From: Gammaproteobacteria bacterium
GTDB lineage: Bacteria; Pseudomonadota; Gammaproteobacteria; Steroidobacterales; Woeseiaceae
Assembly: GCA_029884455.1 (NCBI GenBank)
Contig: JAOUHU010000012.1
Coordinates: forward strand, 1-64,000
Direction of reading: 5' to 3'
DNA: 64,000 nucleotides
The notes below the pieces were generated by a model. It was not told the DNA's origin. It was given only the letters and a program-made list of their open reading frames with translations, and ran no database searches. Positions 1,439-41,711 of the stretch are shown piece by piece. Each line of letters opens with the position of its first letter. Within the stretch, counting starts at the first letter, position 1. The translations under genes and the position numbers were made by a program.

Positions 1439-3657
<2,219 letters not shown>

Positions 3658-3661
<4 letters not shown>

Positions 3662-6600: not shown

Positions 6601-6789
6601 GTCTTCGACAACCTGCGGCGCCTGGCCCGGGAAGGTGGTCTTGATTATGACCTGTACGTCGGAGAGATCAGGCAAAGCGTCAACCGGTGTTTGACGCAGC
6701 GCCGCGATACCGAGGACGGTCAGCATGCTCGTTGCGATCAATACCAGGATCCGGTTCTGAATGGACCAGCGAATCAACGCCGCGATCAT
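3658..6789 (-). CDS. cusA: CusA-type heavy-metal RND efflux transporter
   Basis: Inner-membrane RND pump of the heavy-metal efflux class that drives Cu+/Ag+ through a tripartite complex using proton entry. The length (1043 aa) is normal. N-terminal TM1 is followed by the RND porter region. The transmembrane block with [17 protein letters not shown] carries the acidic proton-relay residue, and the porter stretch near [17 protein letters not shown] is characteristic of CusA/SilA rather than CzcA. It sits between cusB (4-nt ATGA overlap) and the P1B ATPase (4-nt overlap), a strongly coupled operon. Cu/Ag specificity is inferred from this signature and the neighbours. Confidence 0.94.
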
Positions 6790-25943: not shown

Positions 25944-26029
25944 ACCATTTTCCGCGCAACGCTTACTTACCGGGTAAACGAACCTGCGCAATTGCAGCTC
26001 ACAATCCGAAAGCCCCGGGGGATTATCCT

Positions 26030-29000
26030 ATGACCATCCAACGCAGTTTGTCGCATAAAGTACTGGCCGTCTTCACATTGCTCTTGCTGGCGGCTTGTGG
26101 CGGCGGCAACTCCGGCGGTAAGAAGCCGCCAACACCGCCTGTCGACACCACGGCCCCGGTGGTCAACGCGGTGCAGGCGCCTGCTGCCAACGTCAATCGC
26201 ACCGTGACCCTGACCGTAACCGCGACCGACAGCGTTGGCGTGACGGCCGTGCGATTTTTCGTCGACGGAGTGCTGCTCGGCACCGACACCACGGCCCCGT
26301 ACAGCATCGCATGGGACACCTCGGCCGCGACCGAAGGCGATCACACCTTGACTGCCGAGGCGCAAGACGCTGCGGGTAACATCGGCACCTCGGCCGCAGC
26401 GATTGTGACCGTACAGAACGTGCTGGTATTCGCCGTCTCCTTGAGCGGCGACGAAGAGATGCCGGTGTCCGGCTCGACAGCAACCGCGCAGGCTAACCTG
26501 ACCATTAACGTCGCCAGCGGTGCGGTGCAAGGCGCCGTAACCACCAGCGGTATGACCGCGACAGCAGCCCATATCCACAATGCCTTTGCCGGCACGAATG
26601 GCCCGGTGCTGATTCCGCTCGCGCAGGACGCCGTCGACCCGAATTTATTTGCCGTGGCCGGCGGCGCAATGCTGGATGCGGCCGGCGTCGAGCGGCTGCT
26701 GGCCGGTGCCCTGTACGTCAATGTGCACTCGGCCACGTCACCTGCAGGCGAAATCCGCGGCCAGATACTGCCTGACGGTTTCGTGCTGCGCTTTAGCGAT
26801 CTCAATGGCGCAAACAGGGTGCCGCAAATCGATACACTTGCCAGCGGACGAGCCGCAGTGACGCTTGATACGGCAGGCGGCGCGATCGTTGTACACGCCC
26901 AGGTCAACGGGCTAGATGATGCCACCCAGGCGCACGTGCACCAGGCCTACGCCGGCGCAAACGGACCGGTGCTGGTCGGTCTCGTCAAAGATGCGGGCAA
27001 TCCCGGACACTGGTCCGTCGAAGGCGCCGTGCTGAACGCCGCAGGCTTAACAGCCTTTGACAACGGCCAGCTGTACGTCAATGTACACAGCCCGGCCTAC
27101 CCCGGTGGTGAAATTCGTGGGCAGTTGCTGCCCGAGGGGATAGTGGTGCTCTTTGCCGAATTGTCGAGCGCGCAGGAAGTGCCGCGCTTCGATTCGAACG
27201 CCGACGGTCTCGCGACATTGACACTGGATGAAGCGGGCCTGTCACTGACCGTGCATGTGAATACCCGCAACCTCGCTGATGCGTCCGCTGCACACTTGCA
27301 CAGCGCGTTTGGCGGCGTGAACGGACCCGTCGCAATCGGCCTCACCCAGGATGGCGGCAATCCTGCACACTGGTTCGTCGAGCAGCAAGTCCTCAGTGCC
27401 GCACAATTAACGGCGATACTTGCCGGTGGTACGTACATCAATGTGCATAACCCTGCGCACCCGGGCGGCGCGATTCGCGGCCAGGTAATTCCGGAGGGCA
27501 TCGTTTTCGCGACCGGCCTGCTCGACGGCAGCCAGCGAGTACCCGCGATCGCCACATCGGCCAGCGGCACTTACGCCGTCACCGCCGACCCCGCCGCCGG
27601 CACGGTCGTCGCGCACATCAACACCGTCGGTGTCGATGATGCTACCGCGGCCCATTTGCATGACGGCTACGCAGGGACCAATGGCGGCGTCACGATCGGG
27701 CTGACGCAGGATCCTGCCAACGTCGCGCGCTGGTCGGCCGTAAATGCGCCTGTCAACGCAGCACAACTCGCCGCCCTGGGCGCGGGGCAATACTACGTCA
27801 ATGTACATACACCGGCTTATCCGGGCGGCGAAATTCGCGGCCAGGTAATACCGTCGCCGATCGAGGTGCTGTTCACTGGCATGAGCGGCGGCCAGGAAGT
27901 GCCGGCAAACGCCAGCGCTGCAAGTGCGATCGCTGCCAGCACCGTCGATCTTGCAACCGGCACCATCACACTGCACGTCAACGCGACCGGCGTGGACGAT
28001 GCGACGGCATCGCACATTCACCTTGGATTTGCAGGCACCAACGGCGGCGTACAGATTGGGCTGAGCAAAGATGCCGGCAATCCGGGTCACTGGTCGGTTG
28101 TGGGCGCACAACTGGACGCGGCCCGCATGATGAGTTATCAGGACGGGCAGCTCTACGTCAATCTGCACACGCCGGCTTTTCCCGGCGGCGAAATTCGCGG
28201 CCAGATTGCGCCACCACCGGTGGAAGTGTTGTTCACCGGCATGAGCGGCGCCGAGGAAGTGCCGGCAGTCGCGACCGCCGCTACCGGCATCGCCGCGAGT
28301 ACCATGAATCGCGACACGGGCGTGCTGACACTGCACGTTCGGGCGACCGGTGTCGACCAGGCGACCGCATCTCATATTCACACGGCTGCCGCGGGACAGA
28401 ATGGCCCGGTGCTCGTGCCGCTGACACAGGATGCCGGCAATCTCGGCCACTGGTCGGCCAGCGCAGCGCTCGATGCAGCCTCCCTTGGCGACTACAAGGC
28501 CGGTGGGCTGTACGTCAATGTACACACACCGACGAATCCGGGCGGCGAAATCCGCGGCCAGATCATTCCGCCCGACGCGGCCGATTTCGATAATATCGAG
28601 CCCACCGTTACCCTGGCCTCGCCCGGCTCCCCCGTGAGCGGCACAGTAACGCTGACGGCCGATGCCAGCGATAACCAGGGTGTGAGCCTGGTGCGCTTCC
28701 TGGTCAATGGCGCAGTCATCGGCAGCGATTCAACCGCTCCATATTCGCTCGACTGGGTCACGACCACAGCCGCCAACGGTGACGTTACCTTGACCGCCGA
28801 AGCCGAGGACGCAACAGGCAATATTGGCGTGTCCGCCGATGTCATTGTAACGGTGCAAAATGCGGCGGCCGTCACCCTGGCGCAGATTCAGGCCAGTGTT
28901 TTCACCCCGGTTTGCTCAGGCTGCCACTCCGGCCCAACAGGCAATGTGCTGCCGTCAGGCATGAATCTGTCGAACGCCAACGCCAGTTTCAACGCACTCG

Positions 29001-29194
29001 TGAACGTTGCGAGCCTGCAGGTGGCGCTCGATCGTGTGGAGCCAGGTAATCCGGATAACAGCTACCTGATTCGCAAGCTCGAGGGCGGACCAAATATCGT
29101 GTTAAATCGTATGCCACAAGGCGGACCATTCCTCGATCAGGCAACCATCGACATGGTTCGGCAGTGGATCAGTGACGGTGCGCCGAACAACTAG
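26030..29194 (+). CDS. Lipoprotein with six CHRD repeats, two Ig-like domains and a C-terminal cytochrome-like domain
   Basis: A 1054-residue surface lipoprotein. The ATG at 26030 follows GGGGGA and places the lipobox Cys (LLAAC) at residue 23. Order: Ig-like domain (DTTAPVV...GTSAAAI), six CHRD domains each ending in a GxIRGQ motif, a second Ig-like domain, then CSGCH (about 962-966) in a VFTPVCSGCHSGPTGN module like those in the upstream lipoprotein. CHRD domains were named from chordin and their bacterial role is not known; each carries conserved HxHxxxxGxNGPV motifs that could bind metal. The shared cytochrome-like module links this gene to its neighbours. Confidence 0.85.
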   Translation: MTIQRSLSHKVLAVFTLLLLAACGGGNSGGKKPPTPPVDTTAPVVNAVQAPAANVNRTVTLTVTATDSVGVTAVRFFVDGVLLGTDTTAPYSIAWDTSAATEGDHTLTAEAQDAAGNIGTSAAAIVTVQNVLVFAVSLSGDEEMPVSGSTATAQANLTINVASGAVQGAVTTSGMTATAAHIHNAFAGTNGPVLIPLAQDAVDPNLFAVAGGAMLDAAGVERLLAGALYVNVHSATSPAGEIRGQILPDGFVLRFSDLNGANRVPQIDTLASGRAAVTLDTAGGAIVVHAQVNGLDDATQAHVHQAYAGANGPVLVGLVKDAGNPGHWSVEGAVLNAAGLTAFDNGQLYVNVHSPAYPGGEIRGQLLPEGIVVLFAELSSAQEVPRFDSNADGLATLTLDEAGLSLTVHVNTRNLADASAAHLHSAFGGVNGPVAIGLTQDGGNPAHWFVEQQVLSAAQLTAILAGGTYINVHNPAHPGGAIRGQVIPEGIVFATGLLDGSQRVPAIATSASGTYAVTADPAAGTVVAHINTVGVDDATAAHLHDGYAGTNGGVTIGLTQDPANVARWSAVNAPVNAAQLAALGAGQYYVNVHTPAYPGGEIRGQVIPSPIEVLFTGMSGGQEVPANASAASAIAASTVDLATGTITLHVNATGVDDATASHIHLGFAGTNGGVQIGLSKDAGNPGHWSVVGAQLDAARMMSYQDGQLYVNLHTPAFPGGEIRGQIAPPPVEVLFTGMSGAEEVPAVATAATGIAASTMNRDTGVLTLHVRATGVDQATASHIHTAAAGQNGPVLVPLTQDAGNLGHWSASAALDAASLGDYKAGGLYVNVHTPTNPGGEIRGQIIPPDAADFDNIEPTVTLASPGSPVSGTVTLTADASDNQGVSLVRFLVNGAVIGSDSTAPYSLDWVTTTAANGDVTLTAEAEDATGNIGVSADVIVTVQNAAAVTLAQIQASVFTPVCSGCHSGPTGNVLPSGMNLSNANASFNALVNVASLQVALDRVEPGNPDNSYLIRKLEGGPNIVLNRMPQGGPFLDQATIDMVRQWISDGAPNN
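26430..28570 (+). repeat. Six tandem CHRD-encoding repeats of about 360 nt
   Basis: Within the lipoprotein gene the same coding unit recurs six times. The GGCGAAATNCGCGG-like ends fall near 26760, 27120, 27480, 27840, 28200 and 28557: four gaps of exactly 360 nt and one of 357. Units 5 and 6 are the most alike (both start EVLFTGMSG...EVP), suggesting recent duplication. Copy number may vary between strains. Confidence 0.85.
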
Positions 29195-29387: not shown

Positions 29388-30674
29388 CTACGGATAGTTC
29401 TCTCGAATCTCGATGTTCCGATACTCGACCGTTTCTCGCTCGCACTGGATGCCAAAGTAACCCTCCAGCGGAGCGACGTCGTCGGCCTGGCTCAGCAGGA
29501 ATCCGTTGACCCAAACAGTGATGCGGGATCCTTTGGCCTGAACTTCGTAGTTGACCCAATCTTCAGTCCAGTCCGCCGTTGCCGCATAGGCAAGACGCGC
29601 AGCGCGGTAGTCAAACATCGTGTTGCCCTGCTGAACCTCTCCGCCACGCATGAGGATGCCGTTCCAGGGCAAAAGCTTATCTTCCATGGCCCGCGTCTCC
29701 ACCTGGTTCCACCCGGGGCCGCTGCCCGGGTAAGGACTGCGTACGAAAAATCCACCAACCGAAGCGTTGGTTTCGAACCGCGCCTGGTAGCGTAGCGTGA
29801 AGTCGCCATAGGCCTTATCGGTCCAGAGCCCACCACTGCAATTCTGCTCGCCGCGCTCTCCTTCCGATGGGCGACCGCGGACTACGATTGCACCGCCTGC
29901 AACGTCAAATCCGGCGCCCGCGGGATTCTCCATCCTCCAGCCATTCAGAGTTGCGCCATCGAACAGCGGAATGAAACCGTTCGAGCCAGAACTCGACAAG
30001 CCCTCGACGCCCTCATTGATGTCGATTGATCGAAATTCGATGCCGCCGGTTTCAGCCTGGATGCCGATGTAGCCTTCGCTACTGCCGCCCGCTGATGCAA
30101 CACCCAGGTAGTGGTCGTTGAGTGTCACGTGCACGGCATCGCCAATGGCCTGAATTTCCAGAGTCTGCCATGCGCCGGTCGGGCCATATGCCTGCAATGC
30201 AGTGCCGGTGTCAAAAGACGTCGGCCCGCCCGGATTTCCGTGGCGCAGCACTGCCCCTCCCCAGCGCGCGTCCCCGGGAATGGCCGGGCGGTGGCCCTGC
30301 CGATTCGCCAGCTGCACTTCTAGGCTGTTGTCCGGCCACCCGGAGTCGTAGCTGGAATCTGCAGGAGTCCGCAAAAAGATTCCGCTCACACCCACGCGAC
30401 CTCGACCCGGATCTTCCGTCAGGTAGCGAAATTCCATGCGCAATGTGAAATCAGTGTACTTTCTTGCCGATCGCAACCAACCGCCTTCCCCTTCCACGTG
30501 CAACAGCCCATCGCGCACCGAAAAATTCGCGGCATACCGGGCGTCATCGACTGACCAGTTCTGCAGGGTGCGGCCATCGAACAGGGAGGCGAATCCGCGT
30601 GTCGGCGATTCCTGTGCGCAGGCAACCATGCTGATCAACGTCGTGACCCAAATGTATCCGGACGGGTTTCGCAT
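29388..30674 (-). CDS. Exported tandem DUF1080 (3-keto-disaccharide hydrolase family) protein
   Basis: A 428-residue probable lipoprotein (ISMVAC, Cys 19) with two DUF1080/LamG-like jellyroll domains. The first spans about residues 30-215 (FDGRTLQNWSVDD, GGWLRSARKYTDFTL) and the second about 230-425 (FDGATLNGWRMEN, ADWTEDWVNYEV). Characterised members of this family cleave 3-keto-glycosides by an elimination-type route. A similar pair is encoded on the plus strand at 31879. Substrate and which domain is catalytic are not evident. Confidence 0.85.
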   Translation of the reverse strand: MRNPSGYIWVTTLISMVACAQESPTRGFASLFDGRTLQNWSVDDARYAANFSVRDGLLHVEGEGGWLRSARKYTDFTLRMEFRYLTEDPGRGRVGVSGIFLRTPADSSYDSGWPDNSLEVQLANRQGHRPAIPGDARWGGAVLRHGNPGGPTSFDTGTALQAYGPTGAWQTLEIQAIGDAVHVTLNDHYLGVASAGGSSEGYIGIQAETGGIEFRSIDINEGVEGLSSSGSNGFIPLFDGATLNGWRMENPAGAGFDVAGGAIVVRGRPSEGERGEQNCSGGLWTDKAYGDFTLRYQARFETNASVGGFFVRSPYPGSGPGWNQVETRAMEDKLLPWNGILMRGGEVQQGNTMFDYRAARLAYAATADWTEDWVNYEVQAKGSRITVWVNGFLLSQADDVAPLEGYFGIQCERETVEYRNIEIRENYP

Positions 30675-30695
30675 GATGCGGTTCCTCTGCTCTTG

Positions 30696-31709
30696 TTATC
30701 GACCCAGGTATGCTGCGTACTCATCCGGCATGAGGGTAGCGGCGGCAGCGCATTCGTGGGCGACGGTCAGGTAATCCTCTACAACCTGGTTGCCGACGAC
30801 GTAAGGATTGGGATCGCCGCTCCTGCGCTTTTTAACCAGCGGTAACTTGACGTCCGAGTTGTCCAGCTGAGGATGCGTCGAGAGGATGACGTCGGCGCCA
30901 GCCTCGGCGACGATGCCGCGAAAGCGTGCCGCCTGCTTGCTGTACTCCGCCGCATCGTATTGCATCCCTGTGCCTCCCCACAAAGCGGCGAGATGCGGAG
31001 TACCGTTGTCCGTCACAGGAATCAGCAAGGAAATTGTGCCTGGCGTATGTCCGGGCGTCAGAAAGATCGAAATCGTGGTATCGCCGAGTGTGAGCTTCTG
31101 GCCATCGACTGCCGACGCGTCGCGCGCAGGCTTTGGCCCCCTGAAGCGCTCACTTTGCTCCATCTGGTCCCAGTCAGGGCCTCCCATGATCACTTTCGGA
31201 TGGTAGTTTTCCTGCAGGTACCTGGCGCCGCCCACATGATCGGAGTGCCCGTGTGTGAGAAGAATGGTCTTGATGTCCGCCGGGTCGAGACCCAGTTTTT
31301 CGAATCCGCCGAGAATGAGGTCATGCATAGAATCCTCGAACATGGTGTCGATGAGGATAATCCCTTCCGACGTGACCACGGCCCAGGCCGACGGCGTGGC
31401 ACCCCACTGCAACTTTTCGCCCACGTAGTACAGGTTGTCGAACACTCTCACAGGATCCGTTTTGTAATTGGCAGGATCCCTGTCGTCGATGGGTCGCGGA
31501 ATCCGGCCGAACGGCAAATCTGCACCGACAAGCAGTCGCGCACAGGTGTGGTCAAAGAGGACCGCATTGTCATACTTGGCGGCGTGCCTGGCGGCCTCGA
31601 TGTGGGCCAGGCCCGCGGCTCGTTGTGATTGGCCGGGAGCCGGTGCCGCAGCAAGCATGACTCCGGCAGCGAGCACCATTCCGATTATCGTGTTCAAATT
31701 TCGTGACAT
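30696..31709 (-). CDS. Exported metallo-beta-lactamase-fold hydrolase (B3-like)
   Basis: A 337-residue MBL-fold enzyme with a signal peptide (MVLAAGVMLAAAPAPGQS). The zinc-binding HGHSDHVGG, TPGHTPGT and STHPQLDN segments match the order of His/Asp ligands in the subclass B3 group. It is 21 nt upstream of the DUF1080 gene and probably co-transcribed, which argues for a catabolic lactonase or esterase role rather than antibiotic resistance. A B3 resistance enzyme cannot be excluded from sequence alone. Confidence 0.85.
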   Translation of the reverse strand: MSRNLNTIIGMVLAAGVMLAAAPAPGQSQRAAGLAHIEAARHAAKYDNAVLFDHTCARLLVGADLPFGRIPRPIDDRDPANYKTDPVRVFDNLYYVGEKLQWGATPSAWAVVTSEGIILIDTMFEDSMHDLILGGFEKLGLDPADIKTILLTHGHSDHVGGARYLQENYHPKVIMGGPDWDQMEQSERFRGPKPARDASAVDGQKLTLGDTTISIFLTPGHTPGTISLLIPVTDNGTPHLAALWGGTGMQYDAAEYSKQAARFRGIVAEAGADVILSTHPQLDNSDVKLPLVKKRRSGDPNPYVVGNQVVEDYLTVAHECAAAATLMPDEYAAYLGR

Positions 31710-31806
31710 GACTACACCTCGATTTCGAGCGACTGGTTTTGGAATGCAAACAGCCGGCCTGGAGCAAAACGTGGCGGCGCCGGCGCTGTTTGCACTACAC
31801 TAACCA

Positions 31807-31820
31807 GTCAGTACACTGAC
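31807..31820. promoter_or_regulatory. Short inverted repeat in the divergent promoter region
   Basis: GTCAG-TACA-CTGAC, a small perfect inverted repeat between the MBL/DUF1080 operon and the rightward cluster. Such a symmetric site could bind a dimeric repressor controlling both directions. No regulator gene is in the cluster, and 5-bp arms can occur by chance. Confidence 0.3.
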
Positions 31821-31878
31821 ATGGCACGTATGATAGGAGGCGCGGCCCCATCGCGGCAAGCGCCAGAAAGGAGCAGTA

Positions 31879-33222
31879 ATGGGGCAAGTCACCGATAGTC
31901 GTCAATGCAACCAGGCACCAATCGATCAGCACATTACACGCTGGCGCGCCACAACACTTCCGGGCGCCGTGATCTTGCTTGCCGCAGTGTCTGTGGCAGC
32001 ACTGGCTCAGGAGCCGGCCGCCGATCATTGGCGAGTCCTGTTCCCGGGCGACGGACTGGTTGTCGATCCGGGAAGCCAGTCCGAATACGTGCAGATACAC
32101 GATGACGTAGTGCGGATTTTCGGCTCCACGGACGGTGGCTGGCTACGCACCGACCGCAAGTACGCGGACTTTACGATTCAGTTTGAAATCCGTTTTCTCG
32201 CCAATGATGAGATGTACGGGCGCAGTCCCGCGGCCAATAACGGCTTGATTCTTCGCAGTCCGGAAGTATCAATTTCTGGTCGGAACTGGCCCGGGCGCGG
32301 TTTCGAGATGGAACTGTGGGACCAGGTTCGCAGAGGCGGTTTCGCCAAGAACGGCGCCGTCCTGGCGCTTCAGCCCGGAGCACCGGCCGGAAAATTTCGT
32401 TTCGACATCGGGGCGGCACAGCGCGCCTATCGAACGACCGGTGAGTGGAACTCGGTCACGGTCATCGCTCATGGCAACCGAATCTGGACAAAACTCAACG
32501 GCGAGTGGCTGAGCACAGCCTACAACGTTGCGCATCCGGACGGGCATGTAGGCTTCCAGATCGAGGACGGCATCACTGAGATCCGCAACGTCCGAATCAT
32601 GGAACATGCAAAGGACACCTGGACGCCAAATACGATTGTGCCGCTGTTCAAAGACGGTGAGCTTGGCGAATTGAGTCTGGCCGATCCTGCATACGCCGAC
32701 AACATGACCATTCACGACGGACTGCTTCGACTCCAGGGAAGCGGTGGTTGGCTGAGAACCGAACACATGTATACCAGCTACACCCTGAGTGCCGAGTTTC
32801 GCTTTCCGGAAGGCAGTGCGGACTCTGGCGTGTTCCTCAGGGCGTATGGTGATACGACCGACGCGTCGGGATGGCCGCAGAATACCGATGAGGCACAGAT
32901 ACTTTCCCAGCGCGTGCCGCCACCGACAGGGGCAGCCGGAGATCCTCGCTGGTTTGGTACGCTACTGAGCCACGGGACAGCGGGTGGGCGAGCTAGTGTC
33001 GATACCGGCATGGTGCTCGACGCCTACCGCGGCGACAGGGAGTGGCAGACCGTCGTCGTTGATGTTGACGGAGGCCGCGTCGGCGTAACGCTCAATGGCG
33101 TGCTCGTGGCCGAAGGAGACAATGTCGCCAACCTGGAAAGCGGTGGCTATGTCGGGTTGCAGATCGGTTCCGGCGTTACCGAATTCCGTACCATCGAAAT
33201 TCACGGCCTCCGCAAAGACTAA
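31879..33222 (+). CDS. Exported tandem DUF1080 (3-keto-disaccharide hydrolase family) protein
   Basis: A 447-residue protein with two DUF1080 domains (about residues 45-240 and 255-440), each with a GGWLRT...Y..YTL/FTI core (GGWLRTDRKYADFTI, GGWLRTEHMYTSYTL). The N-terminus has a signal-like segment after about 25 residues (PGAVILLAAVSVAALAQ), so it is exported. A downstream start is possible. It begins the rightward cluster and is 6 nt from the transporter. It pairs with the DUF1080 protein on the other strand; the two may act on alternative linkages. Confidence 0.85.
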   Translation: MGQVTDSRQCNQAPIDQHITRWRATTLPGAVILLAAVSVAALAQEPAADHWRVLFPGDGLVVDPGSQSEYVQIHDDVVRIFGSTDGGWLRTDRKYADFTIQFEIRFLANDEMYGRSPAANNGLILRSPEVSISGRNWPGRGFEMELWDQVRRGGFAKNGAVLALQPGAPAGKFRFDIGAAQRAYRTTGEWNSVTVIAHGNRIWTKLNGEWLSTAYNVAHPDGHVGFQIEDGITEIRNVRIMEHAKDTWTPNTIVPLFKDGELGELSLADPAYADNMTIHDGLLRLQGSGGWLRTEHMYTSYTLSAEFRFPEGSADSGVFLRAYGDTTDASGWPQNTDEAQILSQRVPPPTGAAGDPRWFGTLLSHGTAGGRASVDTGMVLDAYRGDREWQTVVVDVDGGRVGVTLNGVLVAEGDNVANLESGGYVGLQIGSGVTEFRTIEIHGLRKD

Positions 33223-33228
33223 CGATTC

Positions 33229-34572
33229 GTGAGCAACGCGGCGACCGGCGTCCATTCGCGGACGGCAAACGATGCAGGCCATCCGGAGCACCTGCCGGTA
33301 CTTCTTAATCGCTGGTCGCGCACCCAGCTGATCGTCGTCGGCTTATGCTGCGTCGTGAACATGATCGACGGCATGGACGTTCTACTTATGTCCTACATAG
33401 CGCCGGCGTTGCAGCAAGACTGGGGAATCCGGTCGGATCAGCTGGGCGTCGTGTTCAGCATCAGCATACTCGGTATGGCAGTGGGCGGCATTGGCCTGGC
33501 CCAACTGGCTGACTACTTCGGTCGACGTCGCATCATTATTGCAGCGCTAGCTACGTCCACGGCCGCAATGCTATTGAGCGGCCTGGTTGCCAACATTCCG
33601 CAGCTGATGACATTGCGCTTTCTCGTCGGTCTCGGGATTGGAACCGTACTGGCGAGTATGGCGGCACTGGTCGCTGAATTTGCCCCGCCGAAATACCGAA
33701 ACTTCGCTGTGGGCCTGCTGTACGCCGGTTATCCGCTGGGCGCAATCATCACGGGCTTTATTTCCGCCTGGTCCATTCCCCAGTTCGGCTGGAAAGCGAC
33801 GCTGGCGGGAGCGGGCGGAATTTCCGCCACCATGCTGCCAATACTCTGGTTTTATTTGCCCGAGTCGATGCAATTTCTTACAAAACGACGGCCGCACAAC
33901 GCGTTGCAACGACTGAACGCAATTTTGGTTCGCCTGAATCGTCCACCTGTCACCGTATTACCGGAGCCCGACAAGGCGCCTTCGGCGCTTGGCGTTGCCG
34001 GCCTTTTCGTCGACGGGCGGGCGATGAGCACGGTGTTGCTTTGGCTCGCGATGGTTTTCGGTTACGCCGCACTCTGGTTCACGATAAGCTGGATTCCCAA
34101 GCTGGCGTCGATGGCCGGCCACGATTCGACCGCCGCAATTTATGTGGGAACAGTTTTCAACGCTGGCGCATTCGTGGGCACGGTCTCTCTCGGACTGATC
34201 ACCGCCCGTCTCAGGTTGCAACCGACGATCCTGACATTCCTGGTCGCTGCAGCGGCAGCCATGGTGTTCTATGGGGTATTTCGTTTCAGCCTGCCGATCA
34301 CCTTGCTGGTCGCCTTCATCATCGGCTTTTTGCAAATGGGCGGATTTAACGGCATCTATCCGCTTGCAACACAGCTTTATCCGGCCGAGGTGCGGAGCAC
34401 GGGAGTCGGCTGGGCCATGGGCGTGGGCCGTGCCGGAGCAGTACTCGGCCCGCTCGCCGGGGGCGTGTTAATTGAGGCAGATTTTCCATTGTCCGTCATT
34501 TTCCTGGTGTTTGCGGTACCCACTGTGCTCGGCGCCGTCTGCGCATTCCTGGTGAAAGCGGATGTCGGCTAG
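33229..34572 (+). CDS. MFS transporter of the AAHS (aromatic acid/H+ symporter) type
   Basis: A 447-residue inner-membrane carrier with 12 predicted helices. The loop 2-3 motif LADYFGRRR is the major-facilitator signature, and the layout resembles the AAHS (benzoate/hydroxybenzoate) family. The GTG start at 33229 is 6 nt after the DUF1080 stop. In this locus the substrate is more likely a sugar-derived acid or ketosugar released in the periplasm than an aromatic acid; that is inference. It overlaps the next gene by 11 nt. Confidence 0.85.
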   Translation: MSNAATGVHSRTANDAGHPEHLPVLLNRWSRTQLIVVGLCCVVNMIDGMDVLLMSYIAPALQQDWGIRSDQLGVVFSISILGMAVGGIGLAQLADYFGRRRIIIAALATSTAAMLLSGLVANIPQLMTLRFLVGLGIGTVLASMAALVAEFAPPKYRNFAVGLLYAGYPLGAIITGFISAWSIPQFGWKATLAGAGGISATMLPILWFYLPESMQFLTKRRPHNALQRLNAILVRLNRPPVTVLPEPDKAPSALGVAGLFVDGRAMSTVLLWLAMVFGYAALWFTISWIPKLASMAGHDSTAAIYVGTVFNAGAFVGTVSLGLITARLRLQPTILTFLVAAAAAMVFYGVFRFSLPITLLVAFIIGFLQMGGFNGIYPLATQLYPAEVRSTGVGWAMGVGRAGAVLGPLAGGVLIEADFPLSVIFLVFAVPTVLGAVCAFLVKADVG

Positions 34573-35413
34573 CTCTGTGCTCGTTGCGGCCAATACCGCA
34601 ACCTTTTCCGCGCCCCTGCCAATGATTGCAAATGCGGCGCGCATGGCCGGCTTTGTCGGACTGGAAGTGTGGAATGCGGACATCGAGAACCTGCCGGGCG
34701 GAGCAGCAGCTGCGGCATCAATGCTTGCGCAGGCCGGCTTGCAGGTACCGACGTTTCAGCTGTTGCGTGATTTCGAGGGCAGTGGTGCGGCCAGGCAGGC
34801 GAAGATGGACGAAGCGGCCAGCCTGATGGATGTCATGCAGGTGCTTGGCGCTCCGACTTTGCTGTTATGCGCCAACACCAATCCCGGCAGTTCGGGGGTT
34901 TGGGCTGCGCAAATCGACGATCTTCGACAGCTCGCGGATCTCGCAGAATCCAGGAACATACGGGTGGGATTCGAACCGCTCGCATGGAGTCAATGGATCA
35001 ATGACTATGCCGCGGCGTGTAAACTGGTAAATGCCGTCGATCACGCCGGCTTCGGGATTGTTCTGGACGTGTTTCACTTATTCAGCCGGCGTACACCGCT
35101 CGACGTACTCGACGATATCCCGATCGACAAGCTGTTGCTGGTGCAGTTGAGCAACGCCATCGCGATGCCGTTGCCGCCCATCGAGATTGCCAGGCACCAC
35201 AGGCTTTTCCCCGCTGACGGAGAATGGCCGGTTGCGGATGTCGTTCGGCGACTTACCGATCGCGGCTACACGGGCTATTTCAGCATCGAAGTTTTCAATG
35301 ACGAGTATAAACTGCAGGACCCGGCGGCCGTGGCCGCCGCGGCCATGCAGTCCTTCCACGCGTTGTTTGCCTGCGGCGCGGGCGCAGAGACGGCGACCAA
35401 CGTAGAGAACTGA
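34562..35413 (+). CDS. Cytosolic TIM-barrel isomerase/epimerase-like protein (AP endonuclease 2 fold)
   Basis: A 283-residue protein of the sugar phosphate isomerase/epimerase (xylose isomerase-like TIM barrel) family. Strand-helix repeats carry the metal ligands and substrate residues (LEVWNADIE, GFGIVLDVFH, FSIEVFND). No signal peptide, so it acts on whatever the MFS carrier imports. It overlaps that gene by 11 nt. Related proteins act in 3-ketosugar and inositol catabolism. Which isomerisation it performs is unknown. Confidence 0.85.
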   Translation: MSASSVLVAANTATFSAPLPMIANAARMAGFVGLEVWNADIENLPGGAAAAASMLAQAGLQVPTFQLLRDFEGSGAARQAKMDEAASLMDVMQVLGAPTLLLCANTNPGSSGVWAAQIDDLRQLADLAESRNIRVGFEPLAWSQWINDYAAACKLVNAVDHAGFGIVLDVFHLFSRRTPLDVLDDIPIDKLLLVQLSNAIAMPLPPIEIARHHRLFPADGEWPVADVVRRLTDRGYTGYFSIEVFNDEYKLQDPAAVAAAAMQSFHALFACGAGAETATNVEN

Positions 35414-35452
35414 AACCAGCTCATGTGCAATTATTCGAATAACGGGGAATGC

Positions 35453-36520
35453 ATGAACACCAGGACTGCTATGCAACAGACAAAGAACGTGTCGCACAGC
35501 GCTGCTCCATTCTTTGATGCCGTATCACGACGAACCGTGTTGCAGGCCATGGCGGCCGCGCCGGCTGCGCTCGCCACTGCAGGCTCCAGGGCGCAACAAG
35601 AACGCACGCATCGAGCGTATCTCGCGATCGTTTCGAGGCACCTGCAGTGGACCGGTTGGCAGGAGGGCATCGAAGTTGCAATAGAGACCGGGTATCCCGG
35701 AATTATCTGGTCGGTGCGTGGCGGCGCCCACGTTGAGCCACAAAACGTTGCTCGCGAACTGCCCGCTATCGTGTCGGCCACCCGCGAGGCGGGCCTGGCA
35801 GTGCCTATGATCATCACTCGAATCGGTGATGCAGGCGAGCCGCATATCGAACCGATGCTCGAGACCTTCGCATCACTTGGCATAGGCCGCTACCGCGCGG
35901 GGACACCGCGCTACGATTACTCACGGAGTTTTGCCGACCAGTTTGACGAGTTTCGGCAGAACCTCGATGCGCTTCAGGAACTGAACGCGAGATACGACGT
36001 TACGGCTTGTTTCCACACTCATTCCAGCCCGGGAAGTCTTGGCGGGGTGGGTTGGGATCTGTGGATGTTGATGCGCGACTGCGATCCCCGCTACATCGGC
36101 ATCAATTTCGACATTGGTCATATCATGGCCCGAACCGGAGTCGGCTGGCGCGATATCGCTCGTGCGGCCCGGGAGTACATCCAGTCACTTTCCCTGAAGG
36201 ATGTGGTGGCGTGGCGCAGAGATGAATCTGGCGGACGCGGCGGGTGGCCCTGGGACAGGCAATTCGTGCCGCCGGGCGACGGCATGGTTCCTTTTGCCGA
36301 TGTGTTCGATTTTTTTTACGACACGAACTTCACCGGGCCGATGGAGGTATACCACGAGTATGCGGCGCCGATACCCGGATCCGAGGATAGACTCAACATG
36401 CTCGGCACTAATTACGGCAAATGGCAACTTGAAGTGCCACGGGACTATTTCATTTCACTACTGGCGCGTGACGTCAGGTTTTACAAGACTGCGTTGCGCA
36501 ATGCGGGGTTTGAGATATGA
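35453..36520 (+). CDS. Tat-exported TIM-barrel isomerase/epimerase-like protein
   Basis: A 355-residue relative of the preceding protein but with an N-terminal SRRTVLQAMAAAPAALATAG twin-arginine signal, so it should work in the periplasm. The barrel carries TACFHTHSSPG, GINFDIGHIM and MEVYHEY, supplying His/Glu/Asp ligands. I prefer the ATG at 35453 (GGGGAA just upstream) over 35423. Its stop overlaps the first PQQ dehydrogenase (ATGA). A periplasmic isomerase next to a periplasmic dehydrogenase fits an extracytoplasmic sugar pathway. The exact reaction is unknown. Confidence 0.83.
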   Translation: MNTRTAMQQTKNVSHSAAPFFDAVSRRTVLQAMAAAPAALATAGSRAQQERTHRAYLAIVSRHLQWTGWQEGIEVAIETGYPGIIWSVRGGAHVEPQNVARELPAIVSATREAGLAVPMIITRIGDAGEPHIEPMLETFASLGIGRYRAGTPRYDYSRSFADQFDEFRQNLDALQELNARYDVTACFHTHSSPGSLGGVGWDLWMLMRDCDPRYIGINFDIGHIMARTGVGWRDIARAAREYIQSLSLKDVVAWRRDESGGRGGWPWDRQFVPPGDGMVPFADVFDFFYDTNFTGPMEVYHEYAAPIPGSEDRLNMLGTNYGKWQLEVPRDYFISLLARDVRFYKTALRNAGFEI

Positions 36521-38484
36521 GGACTGTCATCGCTCACCAGGACCGCTGGCACAAGGTTGTTGCAACTGCAGTCGTGGTCATCGTACTGGCCGCATGCCAA
36601 GGCGGGGACACAGGAGTGGCCTCCACCGGACCGGACCGAACGACTTTGGGCATCCCCGAAGGGCAATGGCCGACTTACGGTGGCGGGCCATACAACCAGA
36701 ATTTCTCCCCGCTCGTCCAGATCGACAAGAACAATGTCGCTGATTTGAGCGTTGCCTGGGTATTCAACTACGGAACCGGGGAACACGATCTGGGCGACCT
36801 CGGGCTCGATTACCGCTTCGAAGTCACACCGTTGCTGGTCGGCGGCGTGATGTACCTTTCGACGCCGAGTTCCCCGAATGCCCCGGGCGTGCCATCCACG
36901 ATTACCGCGCTGGTGCCGGAGACCGGCGCGGTTCTCTGGCGCTACGCATCCCCCTACAATATCCATGGTCGCGGCATCGCCTACTGGCCGGGCGACGAGC
37001 AAACTGCCCCGCGAATCTTCTTCGCAACCGATGGCGGACTCATCCTGGCTATCGATGCTACCACCGGGGAACCCGCCGCCGACTTCGGCCTGCAGGGCCG
37101 GATCGATGCCTACATCGGCGTGGTATCCGAGGTGGTCGGCAACTCGCGGCGCAGCACATACACGATCCCGAATCCGGTAACCATCTATAAAGACCTCGTG
37201 ATTACGGGTGCTCGCCCCGGCGAAGCCGGCCCTCCCGGTCCGCGGGGAGACATCCGGGCCTTCAGTGCTCGCACCGGCCGCCTGCAATGGACCTTCCATA
37301 CGCTGCCGCGCCCCGGTGAGCCGAACGCCAGCGAATTACAGCCGGCCGGAGTCCCCGATCTGACAGGCGCCAACGTCTGGTCGACGATGACACTGGATCC
37401 TGAAAACGGGCTGCTTTATGCGACGACCGGCGACATCAACGGACCGCGTCGCGGCACGCCGGTCGACGGCCCGGAGCCGTTTGCCAATACGCTGCTCGCG
37501 CTCCTCGCCGACACGGGCGAACTGGCCTGGTACCGCAAGATCACGATCAAGGACCTGTGGGACTGGGATCTGCCAACACCGACCGTACTGTTCGACCTCG
37601 ACATCGATGGCAACACCGTGCCCGCCATCCTGTTGACCGGCAAACAGGGCCTCGTGTTCATGTTCAATCGGCTGACCGGAGAATCACTGAACGGCTACGA
37701 ATTGAGACAGGTACCCGGCACCGACGTGCCGGACCTGGACTACTGGCCGGTGCAGCCCTTCCCGGCAGCCCCGGAACCTGTGGCCCGGACCACCATGAGG
37801 CGTGACGAGATTCCCGATCTCGTGCCAGGCATGAAAGAAAATTGCGAAATGCTCTGGGACCGGTACGATCCGATCAATCCAGGCTTGTACGGCCTGCCGC
37901 AAACCGATCGCGCCATCATTCGCGTGCCCGGTTCGACGGGCGGCCCGAACTGGGGCGGCGGTTCCTACAATCCGAACCTGGGTTATTACTTCATCAACGT
38001 CCAGGAAGGGGTGCGCATCCAGGGGCCGGTGCGCAGCGGCAACGAACGCGACCGGACCAGTTTCGATTTCACGATGCCGGACGGTACGACGCTCAGTTGT
38101 GGCGCGTTGCCCTGGGGCGCGCTGGTCGCGGTCGACGTGCGTAACCAGAAGATCGCCTGGAAGGCGCCGCTCGGTGTGACACCGAAGCTCGGAGCAGCCG
38201 GAATGCAAACCGGCGCCAGGAACCTCGGCGGAAACATCAGCACCGCATCGGGCCTGGTCTTCATTGCCGCCAGTAACGACGCCCATTTTCGTGCCTACGA
38301 CGGCCAGACGGGCACCGTCCTCTGGGATACCATCTTGCCTGCCGGGGGACACGCGACGCCAGTGAGTTACATGGGCGCCGACGGCAAACAGTATGTTGTC
38401 ATCGCAGCGGGTGGCGGTACTTCAGTGGGCCGGGCCGATGCGCCGCACATGTCGGACAGCCTCGTGGCGTTTCGCCTGCCCTGA
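36517..38484 (+). CDS. PQQ-dependent dehydrogenase lipoprotein without cytochrome domain
   Basis: A 655-residue quinoprotein propeller. The lipobox LAAC puts the modified Cys at 27, so it is a periplasm-facing lipoprotein. Typical blocks are WPTYGGGPYNQNFSPL, GRGIAYWPGDE, PGEAGPPGPRGD and GLVFMFNRLTGES. Unlike its neighbour it has no CxxCH, so electrons must go to a separate carrier, perhaps the cytochrome domain next door or ubiquinone. It overlaps the Tat isomerase by 4 nt and lies 22 nt before the paralogue. The substrate (alcohol or sugar) cannot be read from the sequence. Confidence 0.9.
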   Translation: MRTVIAHQDRWHKVVATAVVVIVLAACQGGDTGVASTGPDRTTLGIPEGQWPTYGGGPYNQNFSPLVQIDKNNVADLSVAWVFNYGTGEHDLGDLGLDYRFEVTPLLVGGVMYLSTPSSPNAPGVPSTITALVPETGAVLWRYASPYNIHGRGIAYWPGDEQTAPRIFFATDGGLILAIDATTGEPAADFGLQGRIDAYIGVVSEVVGNSRRSTYTIPNPVTIYKDLVITGARPGEAGPPGPRGDIRAFSARTGRLQWTFHTLPRPGEPNASELQPAGVPDLTGANVWSTMTLDPENGLLYATTGDINGPRRGTPVDGPEPFANTLLALLADTGELAWYRKITIKDLWDWDLPTPTVLFDLDIDGNTVPAILLTGKQGLVFMFNRLTGESLNGYELRQVPGTDVPDLDYWPVQPFPAAPEPVARTTMRRDEIPDLVPGMKENCEMLWDRYDPINPGLYGLPQTDRAIIRVPGSTGGPNWGGGSYNPNLGYYFINVQEGVRIQGPVRSGNERDRTSFDFTMPDGTTLSCGALPWGALVAVDVRNQKIAWKAPLGVTPKLGAAGMQTGARNLGGNISTASGLVFIAASNDAHFRAYDGQTGTVLWDTILPAGGHATPVSYMGADGKQYVVIAAGGGTSVGRADAPHMSDSLVAFRLP

Positions 38485-38506
38485 AAATAACGACCCGGAA
38501 TCGACA

Positions 38507-40789
38507 ATGAGCACTGACATGCACATGCCCAAGTTAGCTTATCTCCTTGCAGCTCTGGCTGCAGCAGCCGTCAATTCTGCAGGCGCGCAGGATGTCAACG
38601 TCTTGTTGCCGGACGCTGAGGGCAAAGAAATTGTGACCAGCACCTGTGGTAACTGTCATTCACTCGGGCTTGTTATTGCCACCGGTCGATCCGCTGACGA
38701 TTGGTCGCAAACGATCGACAGAATGCGCGGACTCGGCGCCTACATCGCGGGTGACGACGGCACGACCATTCAACGCTACCTTGCCGAACATTTTCCGCCG
38801 CGACAGGACCCGATGGATTTTGCAACTGTGATGGCCGGTACCCCGGTGGGCGGCGAACCGAAGTATGCGCGGCCGAACGGCGCATCGCAGTGGCCCGGTT
38901 ACGGTGGCGGACCCCTGAACCAGAATTTTTCGCCACTGACCCAGATCAACCCGGATAATGTCGGCGGTCTGGAGCTCGCCTGGGCGTATCGTTACGGCAC
39001 CGGTGAGCATGACATGGGCGACCAGGGCATCGACTATCGCTTTGAAGTGACGCCCCTGCTGATAGGCGATGTCATGTACTTTTCCACGCCAGCTTCCCCG
39101 GCAGCTGCGGGCGTGCGCGCAACGATTACCGCATTGAAACCCGAAACCGGCGAGCTGGTCTGGAAGTTCGAATCCCCCTACAACATACACGGCCGGGGTA
39201 TTGCATATTGGCCCGGCGACCAGGAAACCGCTCCGCGCATAATATTTGCGACCGCCGGCGGCTACATCATGGCCGTGGACGTCACCACGGGTGCACTGGC
39301 ACCAGGGTTCGGTCGCGACGGCGTGATCGATGCCTATGTCGGGGTCGCGTCCGAGATCGTGGGAGAGAGTCGCCGCGACCAGTACACCGTGCCGAATCCG
39401 GTGACCATTTTCGGTGACCTGTTCATTGCCGGGGCCCGCCCCGGCGAGGCCGGTCCGCCCGGCCCGCGCGGCGACGTGCGTGCCTTCAGCGCGCGCGACG
39501 GGCGTCTCGCATGGACTTTCCACACGGCACCGCAGCCAGGAGAGCCGCACGCCGACCTGGTACCCGACCCGGCAGAAAACTACGACGTGACTGGCGCCAA
39601 TGTATGGACCACGATGACGCTGGACCCGGTCAATGGCATCGTGTACGCGCCGCTCGGTGATCTCAATGCGCGCAACCGCGGTCCGGAACTCTTTTCCGGC
39701 AGCATCGTCGCACTGAAAGCCACCACGGGTGAGCTGATGTGGTATCAGCAAATCACGCACAAGGACATGTGGGACTGGGACGCGCCGACGCCAGCGGTGC
39801 TCATGGACCTCGAGCGTGACGGCAACGCAGTACCTGCCCTCTTGTTGACCGGCAAGCACGGCCTCGTGTTCCTGTTCAATCGCCTGACCGGTGAATCGCT
39901 GAATGGCCTGGAAGAACGTCCAACCCCTCGCAGCAACATTCCGGGAGTGGAGCCGTGGCCGAGCCAACCGTTCCCTGCAGCGCCCGAACCGGTCGCGCGC
40001 AACAGCATGACCCGCGACGAAATTCCGGACATGGTGCCCGGCATGAAAGAGCATTGCCAGGCGATCTGGGACGAGTACAAGCCGCTGACGCCAGGACTTT
40101 ATGCGTTGCCGCTCAGCGATCGCGCCGTTGTATCCGGGCCGGGGGCCACAGGCGGTCCCAACTGGGGTGGCGGGTCCTACAACTCCGCGATGGGTTACTT
40201 TTTCATCAACACGCAGAATCAGCTGCGCTTCAGTCTGCCAACCACGTCGCCCGGCGAATTCGTCACCCGGTCACGGATTCCGGACAATGCGCGGCCATTG
40301 GACGCAGCGCCCGGGGCAATGGCGCAACCGACGCGCGGATCCGGCGGCGGGCAACGATTTTCCTTCAGCTTCGACTACGAGGGCGATCGCCTGCCGTGTG
40401 TAGCAGGCCCATGGGGTGAACTGGTCGCCGTCGACGTGCGCAAGCTGGAAATTGCGTGGCGAGTCCCCTTGGGCTTCCGCGAGGATCTTGGCGACATTGC
40501 AAGGAACATGGGTACTCGCAATCTTGGTGGCAACCTGGCGACTGCCTCGGGCCTTGTGTTTATCGCGGCGACCAACGATCGGCGTTTCAGGGCCTTTGAT
40601 GCACGTAACGGCGATGTATTGTGGGAGGCTGAGTTGCCTGCCGGTGGTCATGCAACGCCAATTAGCTACCAGGGAAGTGACGGCAGGCAATACGTAGTTA
40701 TTGCCGCCGGGGGCGGCACGTCGATAGGGCGGGCGCCCGAAGCACCAAGAATGTCCGACAGTGTCGTGGCTTTCAGATTACCGGATTGA
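38507..40789 (+). CDS. PQQ-dependent dehydrogenase with N-terminal cytochrome c domain
   Basis: A 760-residue paralogue of the upstream quinoprotein. The ATG at 38507 gives a signal peptide ending near SAGA. The CxxCH motif is at residues 47-51 (CGNCH), then a cytochrome c-like domain and the propeller from about residue 120 with the same blocks (WPGYGGGPLNQNFSPL, GRGIAYWPGDQ, PGEAGPPGPRGD, TGESLNG). This gives an intramolecular electron path from PQQ to heme. The tandem pair suggests duplication, with one copy gaining or losing the cytochrome. It is 55 nt from the ThuA-like gene. Confidence 0.92.
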   Translation: MSTDMHMPKLAYLLAALAAAAVNSAGAQDVNVLLPDAEGKEIVTSTCGNCHSLGLVIATGRSADDWSQTIDRMRGLGAYIAGDDGTTIQRYLAEHFPPRQDPMDFATVMAGTPVGGEPKYARPNGASQWPGYGGGPLNQNFSPLTQINPDNVGGLELAWAYRYGTGEHDMGDQGIDYRFEVTPLLIGDVMYFSTPASPAAAGVRATITALKPETGELVWKFESPYNIHGRGIAYWPGDQETAPRIIFATAGGYIMAVDVTTGALAPGFGRDGVIDAYVGVASEIVGESRRDQYTVPNPVTIFGDLFIAGARPGEAGPPGPRGDVRAFSARDGRLAWTFHTAPQPGEPHADLVPDPAENYDVTGANVWTTMTLDPVNGIVYAPLGDLNARNRGPELFSGSIVALKATTGELMWYQQITHKDMWDWDAPTPAVLMDLERDGNAVPALLLTGKHGLVFLFNRLTGESLNGLEERPTPRSNIPGVEPWPSQPFPAAPEPVARNSMTRDEIPDMVPGMKEHCQAIWDEYKPLTPGLYALPLSDRAVVSGPGATGGPNWGGGSYNSAMGYFFINTQNQLRFSLPTTSPGEFVTRSRIPDNARPLDAAPGAMAQPTRGSGGGQRFSFSFDYEGDRLPCVAGPWGELVAVDVRKLEIAWRVPLGFREDLGDIARNMGTRNLGGNLATASGLVFIAATNDRRFRAFDARNGDVLWEAELPAGGHATPISYQGSDGRQYVVIAAGGGTSIGRAPEAPRMSDSVVAFRLPD

Positions 40790-40844
40790 TAAACAATCAG
40801 ATGCCCGGCTGGTTTCCAGGCCGGCGAGCAGAAGGAGAATGACG

Positions 40845-41711
40845 ATGAAACTGATGCACATGCTGGCGATGGGCCTGGCAATCACGCCGCTGTTGATTCC
40901 AATAGCTCAGGCACAGAATCAGGGCGGCGACCCCTGGCCGGACATGAAGAAGTTGCTGGTCATTGCTGATGTCCAGACCGGCTTTCATCACGACTCCATC
41001 AATCACGCGATGGGTGTGATCGAGCAACTCGGCAGAGAGTCCGGGGCTTGGGTAACGATCCTGCGCACGGATTCACAATTGATCACCAAAGAAGAAATCC
41101 TGGGCCAGGGCAGTCGCTATAGCGGCCGGCGCGTCAACGCCAGAAACCTGAACTACTTTGACGGAGTTTTCGTTCTTGCCAGCGGCGAAGGCACTCTGAA
41201 CGAAGAACAGAAGAGCGCACTGTTGTCCTTTGTCCACGACGATGGCAAGGCAATCATTCTGGGTCATGCCGCCAGCGTGGCCTGGTATGACTGGCAGGAC
41301 TACCTCGACATGATTGGCTCATTCATGGCCAGTGAATACCGGACCGGCGAATTTCAGTTCATACGCGAGTCGTCCACATTCCCGGGTGCGAATGCGTTTG
41401 CCGAGCATTTCGTGCTCAACGACCAGCCCGCCGTTTGGCTGGATCATTTCAGCAGCGACGATGCCGAGGTGATTTTGCGCATGGATCCCGCCGGGATGAC
41501 GGAGGAACAACTGGCAACGCGCGCGGACCATGATTTCCCAGAAGTGTTTGCCAAGTATTATGGCAAGGGTCGCGTGTTCAATAATGCCATCGGCCATCGC
41601 GAAGAAGTCTGGGATGATCCCCGTTTTCGCGAGCTCATGACCGAGGGCATCAAGTGGGCACTCGGTGTTACTCAATATGATCTGACATACCCGAACAAGC
41701 ACGAGCAATAA
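40845..41711 (+). CDS. Exported ThuA-like (trehalose utilisation) protein
   Basis: A 288-residue protein of the ThuA/GATase1-like family. The ATG at 40845 sits 7 nt after GAAGGAG and gives a signal peptide (MLAMGLAITPLLIPIAQA). The core has KKLLVIADVQTGFHHDSI, VFVLASGEGT and a WYDWQDYL segment. ThuA proteins participate in the catabolism of 3-keto disaccharides, in line with the DUF1080 proteins. It is last in the cluster. Confidence 0.85.
   Translation: MKLMHMLAMGLAITPLLIPIAQAQNQGGDPWPDMKKLLVIADVQTGFHHDSINHAMGVIEQLGRESGAWVTILRTDSQLITKEEILGQGSRYSGRRVNARNLNYFDGVFVLASGEGTLNEEQKSALLSFVHDDGKAIILGHAASVAWYDWQDYLDMIGSFMASEYRTGEFQFIRESSTFPGANAFAEHFVLNDQPAVWLDHFSSDDAEVILRMDPAGMTEEQLATRADHDFPEVFAKYYGKGRVFNNAIGHREEVWDDPRFRELMTEGIKWALGVTQYDLTYPNKHEQ

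Follow-up and report, generated by a model that had tools for sequence, protein, structure and literature searches.

Which compound do the two pyrroloquinoline quinone (PQQ) dehydrogenases encoded at positions 29,388 to 41,711 of the window oxidize, and what becomes of the product? The window is the whole 64,000-nucleotide stretch analyzed here, the start of contig JAOUHU010000012.1 from a gammaproteobacterium of the Woeseiaceae. A sequence-only reading had proposed that these enzymes and their neighbors form a periplasmic, oxidize-first pathway for glycosides. Much of that layout stands. The window encodes an exported PQQ oxidant, an exported DUF1080 protein, and a presumably importing carrier, and no GFO/IDH gene was detected in it or in a related locus, L001. 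The glycoside substrate is not supported. The cytosolic TIM barrel keeps nine of ten active-site residues of 3-dehydroshikimate dehydratases, the carrier is nearest to aromatic-acid symporters, relatives of the L001 TetR regulator lie beside quiC, and a related PQQ-ThuA gene pair occurs elsewhere with quinate/shikimate genes. A quinate-type substrate is the best explanation for these four features and for the Lig genes of the host. We suggest, with modest confidence, that the cluster handles an alicyclic hydroxy acid like quinate or shikimate, oxidizing it first and in the periplasm.

All nine open reading frames listed in the sequence-only reading are present at or close to where it placed them, and Pfam backs every family. 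Here, G numbers denote genomes, L numbers denote loci, and C91, C135, C22, and C83 are contigs of the host genome (G000), which is a metagenome-assembled genome (MAG). The genes are as follows.

29388 to 30674, minus strand: DUF1080A, exported, with two DUF1080 (3keto-disac_hyd) domains (PF06439 in two stretches, 187.7 bits; borderline lipobox MVAC).
30696 to 31709, minus strand: exported metallo-beta-lactamase (MBL)-fold hydrolase (PF00753, 71.1 bits).
31879 to 33222, plus strand: DUF1080B, which opens the probable operon, exported, with two DUF1080 domains, conserved core (PF06439 in two stretches, 148.2 bits; 75% identical in L001).
33229 to 34572, plus strand: major facilitator superfamily (MFS) carrier, conserved core (TIGR00895, 350.5 bits; 73% identical in L001).
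34562 to 35413, plus strand: TIMcyt, predicted stand-alone 3-dehydroshikimate dehydratase of the QuiC/QsuB N-domain type, cytosolic, conserved core (PF01261; NF042435, 169.7 bits).
35423 to 36520, plus strand: TIMtat, PF01261 barrel exported by the twin-arginine (Tat) route, weakly IolE-like (PF01261, 67.7 bits; SRRTVL; probable true start ATG at 35453).
36517 to 38484, plus strand: PQQ1, quinoprotein dehydrogenase of the conserved core, soluble and probably lipid-anchored (PF01011, 469.6 bits; lipobox LAAC).
38393 to 40789, plus strand: PQQ2, exported quinoprotein whose N-terminal part carries a CxxCH segment, conserved core (PF01011, 515.5 bits; CGNCH; probable true start ATG at 38507; 71% identical in L001).
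40761 to 41711, plus strand: exported ThuA-family protein, last gene of the probable operon (PF06283, 86.9 bits; probable start 40839).

TIMcyt is probably a 3-dehydroshikimate dehydratase, judging from its active-site residues, its sequence, and its modeled fold. Its top NCBIfam model is the QuiC 3-dehydroshikimate dehydratase, NF042435, and the next best model scores only 26.6 bits. Among solved structures, QuiC1 is nearest in sequence (5hmq, E = 1.9e-44), followed by IolI (2.7e-09), and TIMcyt is 30 to 35% identical to QuiC barrels from the same order. The passages of PMC7442255 available to us give ten active-site residues for QuiC1/QsuB: R64, L97, E134, L136, D165, H168, Q191, S206, R210, and E239. 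TIMcyt and the L001 barrel each keep nine of them, and the QuiC proteins of G118, G215, and G237 keep all ten. The controls E. coli YcjR, UlaE, and TIMtat keep six, three, and four, respectively, and four other barrel proteins of the host genome keep 3, 5, 7, and 3. An AlphaFold model of TIMcyt, built from a two-sequence alignment (predicted local distance difference test score [pLDDT], 77.7), matches 5hmq best among the chains aligned (Z 29.2, 264 residues, 3.1 Å). IolI (Z 27.6), AsbF (23.9), and YcjR (23.2) rank lower. The sequence-only reading had described one cytosolic and one Tat-exported isomerase-like barrel. Both barrels are present, and by its residue set the cytosolic one is probably of the QuiC type.

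The carrier, a regulator, and the downstream genes are consistent with a quinate-type substrate. The top NCBIfam model of the carrier is the aromatic acid/H+ symport model TIGR00895 in both the window and L001 (335.6 bits in the latter), and neither protein reaches its cut-off of 418.55. The sugar porter model TIGR00879 gives the window carrier 53.5 bits. In L001, a TetR gene diverges from the core. Its product is 50%, 46%, and 55% identical to the TetRs beside quiC in G118, G215, and G091, respectively, and a control TetR is 35% identical over only 55 aa. The host genome also carries genes for protocatechuate cleavage above their cut-offs, on C135: LigA (185 bits; cut-off 108.6), a LigB-type protein (523; 317), and oxalomesaconate tautomerase (530; 440). 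A GFO/IDH gene beside LigB on C135 is probably LigC, by position only.

Relatives of the PQQ and ThuA genes are found among quinate-type genes in other places. In G118, a TonB receptor, a PQQ gene (38%), and a ThuA gene (41%) lie between an AroE-like gene and a run of MFS, AroQ, QuiC/HPPD, TetR, PcaC-like, and aromatic-acid MFS genes. That receptor was identified by its relation to the L002 receptor, not by a Pfam scan. Host contig C91 has genes for a TetR, an AroE-like protein, QuiC/HPPD, AroQ, an AroQ-like protein (below cut-off), and citryl-CoA lyase, together with a PQQ-ThuA pair, an MBL homologue, and a pair of PQQ and Tat-barrel genes. Positions 34000 to 80000 of C91 (L080, L029, and L081) form a large catabolic region that also encodes an acetolactate-synthase-like enzyme and several PQQ proteins. 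In Novosphingobium and Sphingobium (L002 to L005), a soluble PQQ dehydrogenase with a CxxCH segment occurs with ThuA and a TonB receptor. The MFS carriers of L002, L003, and L005 are 55 to 61% identical to carriers in the quinate-type clusters of G118 and G215.

ThuA adjoins a soluble PQQ gene in the window and in six other loci (L002 to L005, L020, and host C91). Queries with the ThuA proteins of the window and of C91 found no ThuA with PQQ in L001, L007 to L010, L021, or L022. The tblastn search with the window ThuA could miss a protein as diverged as that of C91. The C91 ThuA, searched by tblastn against the window and 13 loci, was found only in L002 to L005 and L020.

The cluster is not a chance assembly of genes, because the DUF1080-MFS-TIM-PQQ-PQQ order recurs in L001, a locus from a gammaproteobacterial MAG. 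The DUF1080B, MFS, TIM, PQQ1, and PQQ2 proteins stand in the same order as in the window and are 75, 73, 55, 75, and 71% identical, respectively. The genome of L001 appears to be G064, which belongs to another family, as the match places are identical. In the examined L001 stretch, tblastn found no match to TIMtat, ThuA, DUF1080A, or MBL, the DUF1080A query matching only the DUF1080B gene. In the window, the plus-strand run from DUF1080B to ThuA has intergenic gaps of -11 to +49 bp when TIMtat, PQQ2, and ThuA are taken to begin at their likely internal start codons. These genes therefore probably form one operon, from which the DUF1080A-MBL pair diverges. A promoter and terminator scan gave about as many sites as were found in shuffled sequence. 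Export signals were read by a simple N-terminus scan, not by a trained predictor. They were seen on DUF1080A (borderline), DUF1080B, MBL, PQQ1, PQQ2, ThuA, and TIMtat; by the same scan, TIMcyt has none and the MFS carrier is a membrane protein.

Few genomes carry this core. In a set of 246 genomes from the order, four were matched by PQQ1 at E ≤ 1e-100 (the host, G064 at 76%, and two at 40 to 41%), and two, the host and G064, by DUF1080B at E ≤ 1e-20. TIMcyt at E ≤ 1e-30 matched six: the host, G064 (55%), and four at 31 to 35%, whose frames of 628 to 638 aa have the length of a QuiC-HPPD fusion. PQQ1 matched only its own genome in the class sample (1 of 369) and two genomes in the phylum sample (2 of 398; its own and one at 38%). 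DUF1080B matched only its own genome in the 398-genome sample, and the class and phylum searches gave no further clear orthologues of either protein. A plasmid search with DUF1080B gave two distant matches, and a plasmid PQQ match (L031) has no recognized qui-type neighbors. The core arrangement is therefore rare, and its linkage is based on two genomes. For the 11 related loci, neighborhoods were read in six (L001, L002, L003, L005, L007, and L009); L004, L006, L008, L010, and L011 were compared by tblastn only, except that L004, L008, and L010 were also in the PQQ alignment.

The PF01011 scores of PQQ1 and PQQ2 and their Gcd-equivalent residues identify both as PQQ-dependent dehydrogenases. 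Their propellers keep the equivalents of Asp466, Lys493, Trp404, Asn607, and Asp730 of E. coli Gcd, positions that we take to be functional in that enzyme. They differ from Gcd at, for example, His262, Asp354, and His775. The CGNCH motif of PQQ2 lies ahead of its propeller, which makes this protein a likely quinohemoprotein. The top NCBIfam model for both is TIGR03074, which covers glucose and quinate/shikimate dehydrogenases. Where TIGR03074 enzymes have a membrane domain, PQQ1 and PQQ2 have a signal or lipobox. In the PQQ tree, the window and L001 PQQ1 proteins group together (support 1.0), as do the two PQQ2 proteins (0.92), and the sphingomonad enzymes form the sister group of all four (1.0). 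The tree leaves out loci G118 C14, G064 C7b, G215 C3, and G215 C2. An Acinetobacter QuiA fragment falls outside the soluble-enzyme group to which PQQ1 and PQQ2 belong, in a tree that is half-length and has weakly supported deeper nodes. Orthology to QuiA was ruled out by the TIGR03074 scores, which are below cut-off, and by the separate clade.

In an A. baumannii record (L079, 6875 to 8284), a quiA-like frame beside qui/pca-like genes covers about the first 434 of 783 model positions. That gene looks interrupted.

DUF1080B keeps the skeleton of its family. A profile search placed the two-domain structure 4jqt first (E = 3.6e-12) and gave 9fbe at 4.1e-05. Its structure model is of low confidence (pLDDT 59.7), and no pocket was read from it. 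The N-domain of the model matches 9fbe and 8rr2, titled 3-keto-glycoside eliminase/hydratase, and 8v31 and 8tda, titled 3-keto-2-hydroxy-glucal hydratase. By these titles, solved DUF1080 proteins eliminate from, or add water to, C1-C2 beside a C3 ketone. The cluster encodes both families (PF06439 and PF01261) that could supply the eliminase/hydratase of a 3-keto-glycoside pathway. 3-Dehydroquinate dehydratase carries out analogous chemistry on a carbocycle, in which the C1 hydroxyl leaves, the hydrogen on C2 is removed, and the ketone is at C3. By this analogy, DUF1080B might be a 3-dehydroquinate dehydratase unrelated to AroD/AroQ that acts by beta-elimination of the C1 hydroxyl beside the C3 ketone, an idea to which we give a low probability. 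In that case, the window and L001 would each encode a complete quinate pathway based on soluble quinoproteins, with DUF1080 replacing QuiB/AroQ, which is just as tentative. In G118, AroQ is present in the quinate-type cluster and the genome has no DUF1080B match at E ≤ 1e-20; this alternation of AroQ and DUF1080B is suggestive only. Alternatively, a cytosolic AroQ encoded on C91 could catalyze the step, or a shikimate substrate could make it unnecessary, or a sugar conjugate could restore the usual DUF1080 job.

ThuA, TIMtat, and MBL, like the DUF1080 proteins, may also serve the pathway. Among solved structures, TIMtat weakly matches IolE (3cny, E = 2.8e-08), and a 29% identical homologue adjoins a PQQ gene on C91. 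We considered a role as an inosose dehydratase or a keto-acid dehydratase; the IolE match is weak, and TIMtat is absent from L001. The MBL protein has a homologue (43.6% identity) adjoining the PQQ-ThuA pair on C91. A B3 beta-lactamase was considered; the protein scores below the cut-offs of the NCBIfam models listed (25 of 44), including the B3 equivalog (112.6 versus 240) and the class B core domain (83.2 versus 100).

Two other DUF1080 loci were seen in the host genome. On C22 (1 to 18000, L023), a ThuA-DUF1080 fusion near xylose isomerase marks a carbohydrate DUF1080 locus, with a second DUF1080 match in the next gene, which is similar in length. On C83 (4341 to 7065, L025), a DUF1080 protein is divergent from a GMC oxidoreductase, a layout recalling LacABC plus DUF1080; GMC domains were the only ones tested there.

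We propose the following route for a quinate/shikimate-type substrate. PQQ1 and PQQ2, a diverged soluble pair of which one has a lipoprotein signal and the other a heme c motif, would act in the periplasm on quinate or shikimate, oxidizing its C3 hydroxyl. With quinate, the resulting 3-dehydroquinate would then have to lose water to give 3-dehydroshikimate. DUF1080 or TIMtat might conceivably catalyze this dehydration on the periplasmic side; failing that, an AroQ in the cytosol might. The aromatic-acid-type MFS carrier would import the 3-keto acid, if transport runs inward. In the cytosol, TIMcyt is predicted from its residues, sequence, and fold to convert 3-dehydroshikimate to protocatechuate, which would enter the 4,5-cleavage route encoded on another host contig, where the genes are present. 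Periplasmically formed dehydroshikimate is known to pass the inner membrane of Acinetobacter baylyi, and in the available text of PMC4213383 the authors suggest VanK or PcaK.

Several observations weigh against this route. TIMcyt is far under the NF042435 cut-off (169.7 versus 1200 bits), a model that includes the fused HPPD-like domain; two full-length QuiC fusions that we scanned score only 631 and 655. The QsuB N-domain is active alone (PMC7442255, in part). TIMcyt has Ala at the QuiC1 Ser206 position, as does the L001 barrel. One uncharacterized C91 barrel keeps seven of the ten residues, and the QuiC-like fusions of C91 and G091 keep only four each. The residue set is therefore an imperfect marker, and C91 may serve another substrate. 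PQQ1 and PQQ2 score 348.2 and 381.7 bits with TIGR03074 against a cut-off of 832.65, their matches starting at profile positions 139 and 150, and the tree places them in a soluble-enzyme group that includes neither E. coli Gcd nor the membrane Gcd/QuiA enzymes. Quinate or shikimate is only a predicted substrate for them. Pfam and NCBIfam found no 3-dehydroquinate dehydratase among the cluster genes, and tblastn with two type II AroQ proteins found none in L001, where type I was not searched by model. To our knowledge, DUF1080 is known only from carbohydrate chemistry. The window has no relative of the L001 TetR, and the core was seen in just two of the searched genomes. In the examined flanks of the nearest sphingomonad PQQ relatives no QuiC, AroQ, AroE, or LigA was found, and a GH43 glycosidase gene adjoins in L002 to L004 but not in L005. 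A sugar context is therefore possible for that branch.

The supply of PQQ may be a further point on that side. In the host MAG, no pqqC was found, and no pqqE above cut-off, so PQQ would come from outside or the genes would lie on a missing contig. The MAG is 88.9% complete, and their absence is therefore not proven. The four sphingomonad genomes (L002 to L005) likewise gave no pqqC, and two sphingomonads and G118 gave no pqqE above cut-off. Both genes are present in G064, the genome of L001, and in P. syringae. E. coli Gcd is presumably a precedent for the use of external PQQ.

The glycoside pathway of the sequence-only reading is an unlikely account of the cluster. There, the quinoproteins would oxidize C3 of a disaccharide or glycoside, DUF1080, with ThuA and TIMtat, would cleave the product in the periplasm, the MFS carrier would import it, and TIMcyt would perform an isomerase or hydratase step. 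This account draws on the 3-keto-glycoside eliminase/hydratase character of the DUF1080 family, on the low-confidence DUF1080B model with its four matches, on the GH43 genes beside the PQQ-ThuA relative in L002 to L004, and on the inclusion of glucose dehydrogenases in TIGR03074. The available text of PMC7676230 and PMC10066097 describes PF01261 barrels that carry out beta-elimination and hydration of 3-keto-levoglucosan, and a periplasmic LacABC plus DUF1080 pathway has been proposed for lactose (PMC9007349, in part). The lactose proposal also shows that placing DUF1080 only after an NAD-dependent GFO/IDH enzyme, as the sequence-only reading did, is too narrow. However, TIMcyt carries the dehydroshikimate dehydratase residue set and the characterized control barrels do not, the carrier is of the aromatic-acid type and not a sugar porter, and the L001 regulator and the G118 context indicate quinate. 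In addition, Pfam and NCBIfam found no sugar kinase, glycosidase, or 3-keto-sugar reductase among the cluster genes. In view of the genomic context, the active-site residues of TIMcyt, and the regulator in L001, we rejected a glycoside as the default substrate. As to the oxidant, Pfam found no GFO/IDH among the cluster genes, and tblastn with five host GFO/IDH proteins and E. coli YcjS found none in the window or L001. The absence asserted by the sequence-only reading is correct for the locus only, because six PF01408 places lie elsewhere in the host genome. One GMC oxidoreductase query had no tblastn match in the window or L001, LacABC not being searched by model.

A hybrid of the two ideas would start from a conjugate, such as a quinate/shikimate-type acid linked to a sugar as a glycoside. 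PQQ1 and PQQ2 would oxidize the sugar, the ring, or both, DUF1080 would split off the sugar in the periplasm by 3-keto elimination, and TIMcyt would aromatize the imported acid. Such a scheme gives each conserved-core gene (DUF1080B, MFS, TIMcyt, PQQ1, and PQQ2) a known chemistry and explains why two diverged dehydrogenases lie side by side in both genomes. Nevertheless, the cluster shows no uptake gene specific for glycosides, and we consider the hybrid quite improbable. Lower still is our estimate for PQQ1 and PQQ2 as ordinary alcohol or aldose dehydrogenases whose neighbors have separate functions. Their propellers do match alcohol-dehydrogenase models and structures, but the tight gene spacing, together with a core order that a second genome shares, argues for a single pathway.

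Outside the cluster, the window encodes a lipoprotein-like protein of 1084 aa just upstream (25940 to 29194), with six CHRD stretches and two bacterial Ig-like stretches. A metal-efflux-type run at 1439 to 9289 comprises a P-type ATPase, an RND pump, an HlyD-like adaptor with a heavy-metal-binding domain, and an outer-membrane efflux protein.

If the quinate/shikimate-type reading is true, periplasmic PQQ oxidation of these acids would extend to soluble, lipid-anchored, and heme-linked enzymes. DUF1080 and ThuA, families classed with sugar metabolism, would then also take part in degrading ring-shaped plant acids, and a DUF1080 label alone would be no proof of a glycoside substrate. In open-licence literature, we found nothing joining 3-keto sugar, PQQ, and glucoside 3-dehydrogenase. 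Among the matches listed for quinate, PQQ, and ThuA terms in the same literature, DUF1080 was absent; the link may still be published elsewhere.

The cluster can be compared with four known systems, each as described in the available parts of its sources. Like the QuiA-QuiB-QuiC pathway of Acinetobacter (PMC4213383), it would first oxidize a ring alcohol with PQQ in the periplasm and lead to protocatechuate, and in Acinetobacter, too, dehydroshikimate crosses the inner membrane. However, the quinoproteins of the cluster are soluble or lipid-anchored and doubled, one has a CxxCH motif, and no QuiB was found. QuiC is periplasmic in Acinetobacter, whereas the predicted dehydratase here is a cytosolic TIM barrel. 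DUF1080 is an addition of the cluster, as are ThuA and a Tat barrel in the window. TIMcyt resembles the two-domain dehydratases QuiC1/QsuB (5hmq; PMC7442255) in fold and in nine of ten active-site residues, but it stands alone without the HPPD-like second domain and has Ala for Ser206. In the lactose pathway of Caulobacter (PMC9007349), too, oxidation takes place in the periplasm and an exported DUF1080 protein acts next; here, PQQ enzymes are in the place of LacABC, and a barrel of the dehydroshikimate dehydratase type is added. The levoglucosan and other 3-keto-glycoside pathways combine GFO/IDH or flavoprotein dehydrogenases with TIM-barrel eliminases (PMC7676230, PMC10066097, and PMC10628242). 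They share with the cluster PF01261, in the levoglucosan route, and beta-elimination beside a C3 ketone, a chemistry also named in the titles of solved DUF1080 proteins. In contrast to them, the cluster is without GFO/IDH, and its cytosolic barrel has the residues of a 3-dehydroshikimate dehydratase.

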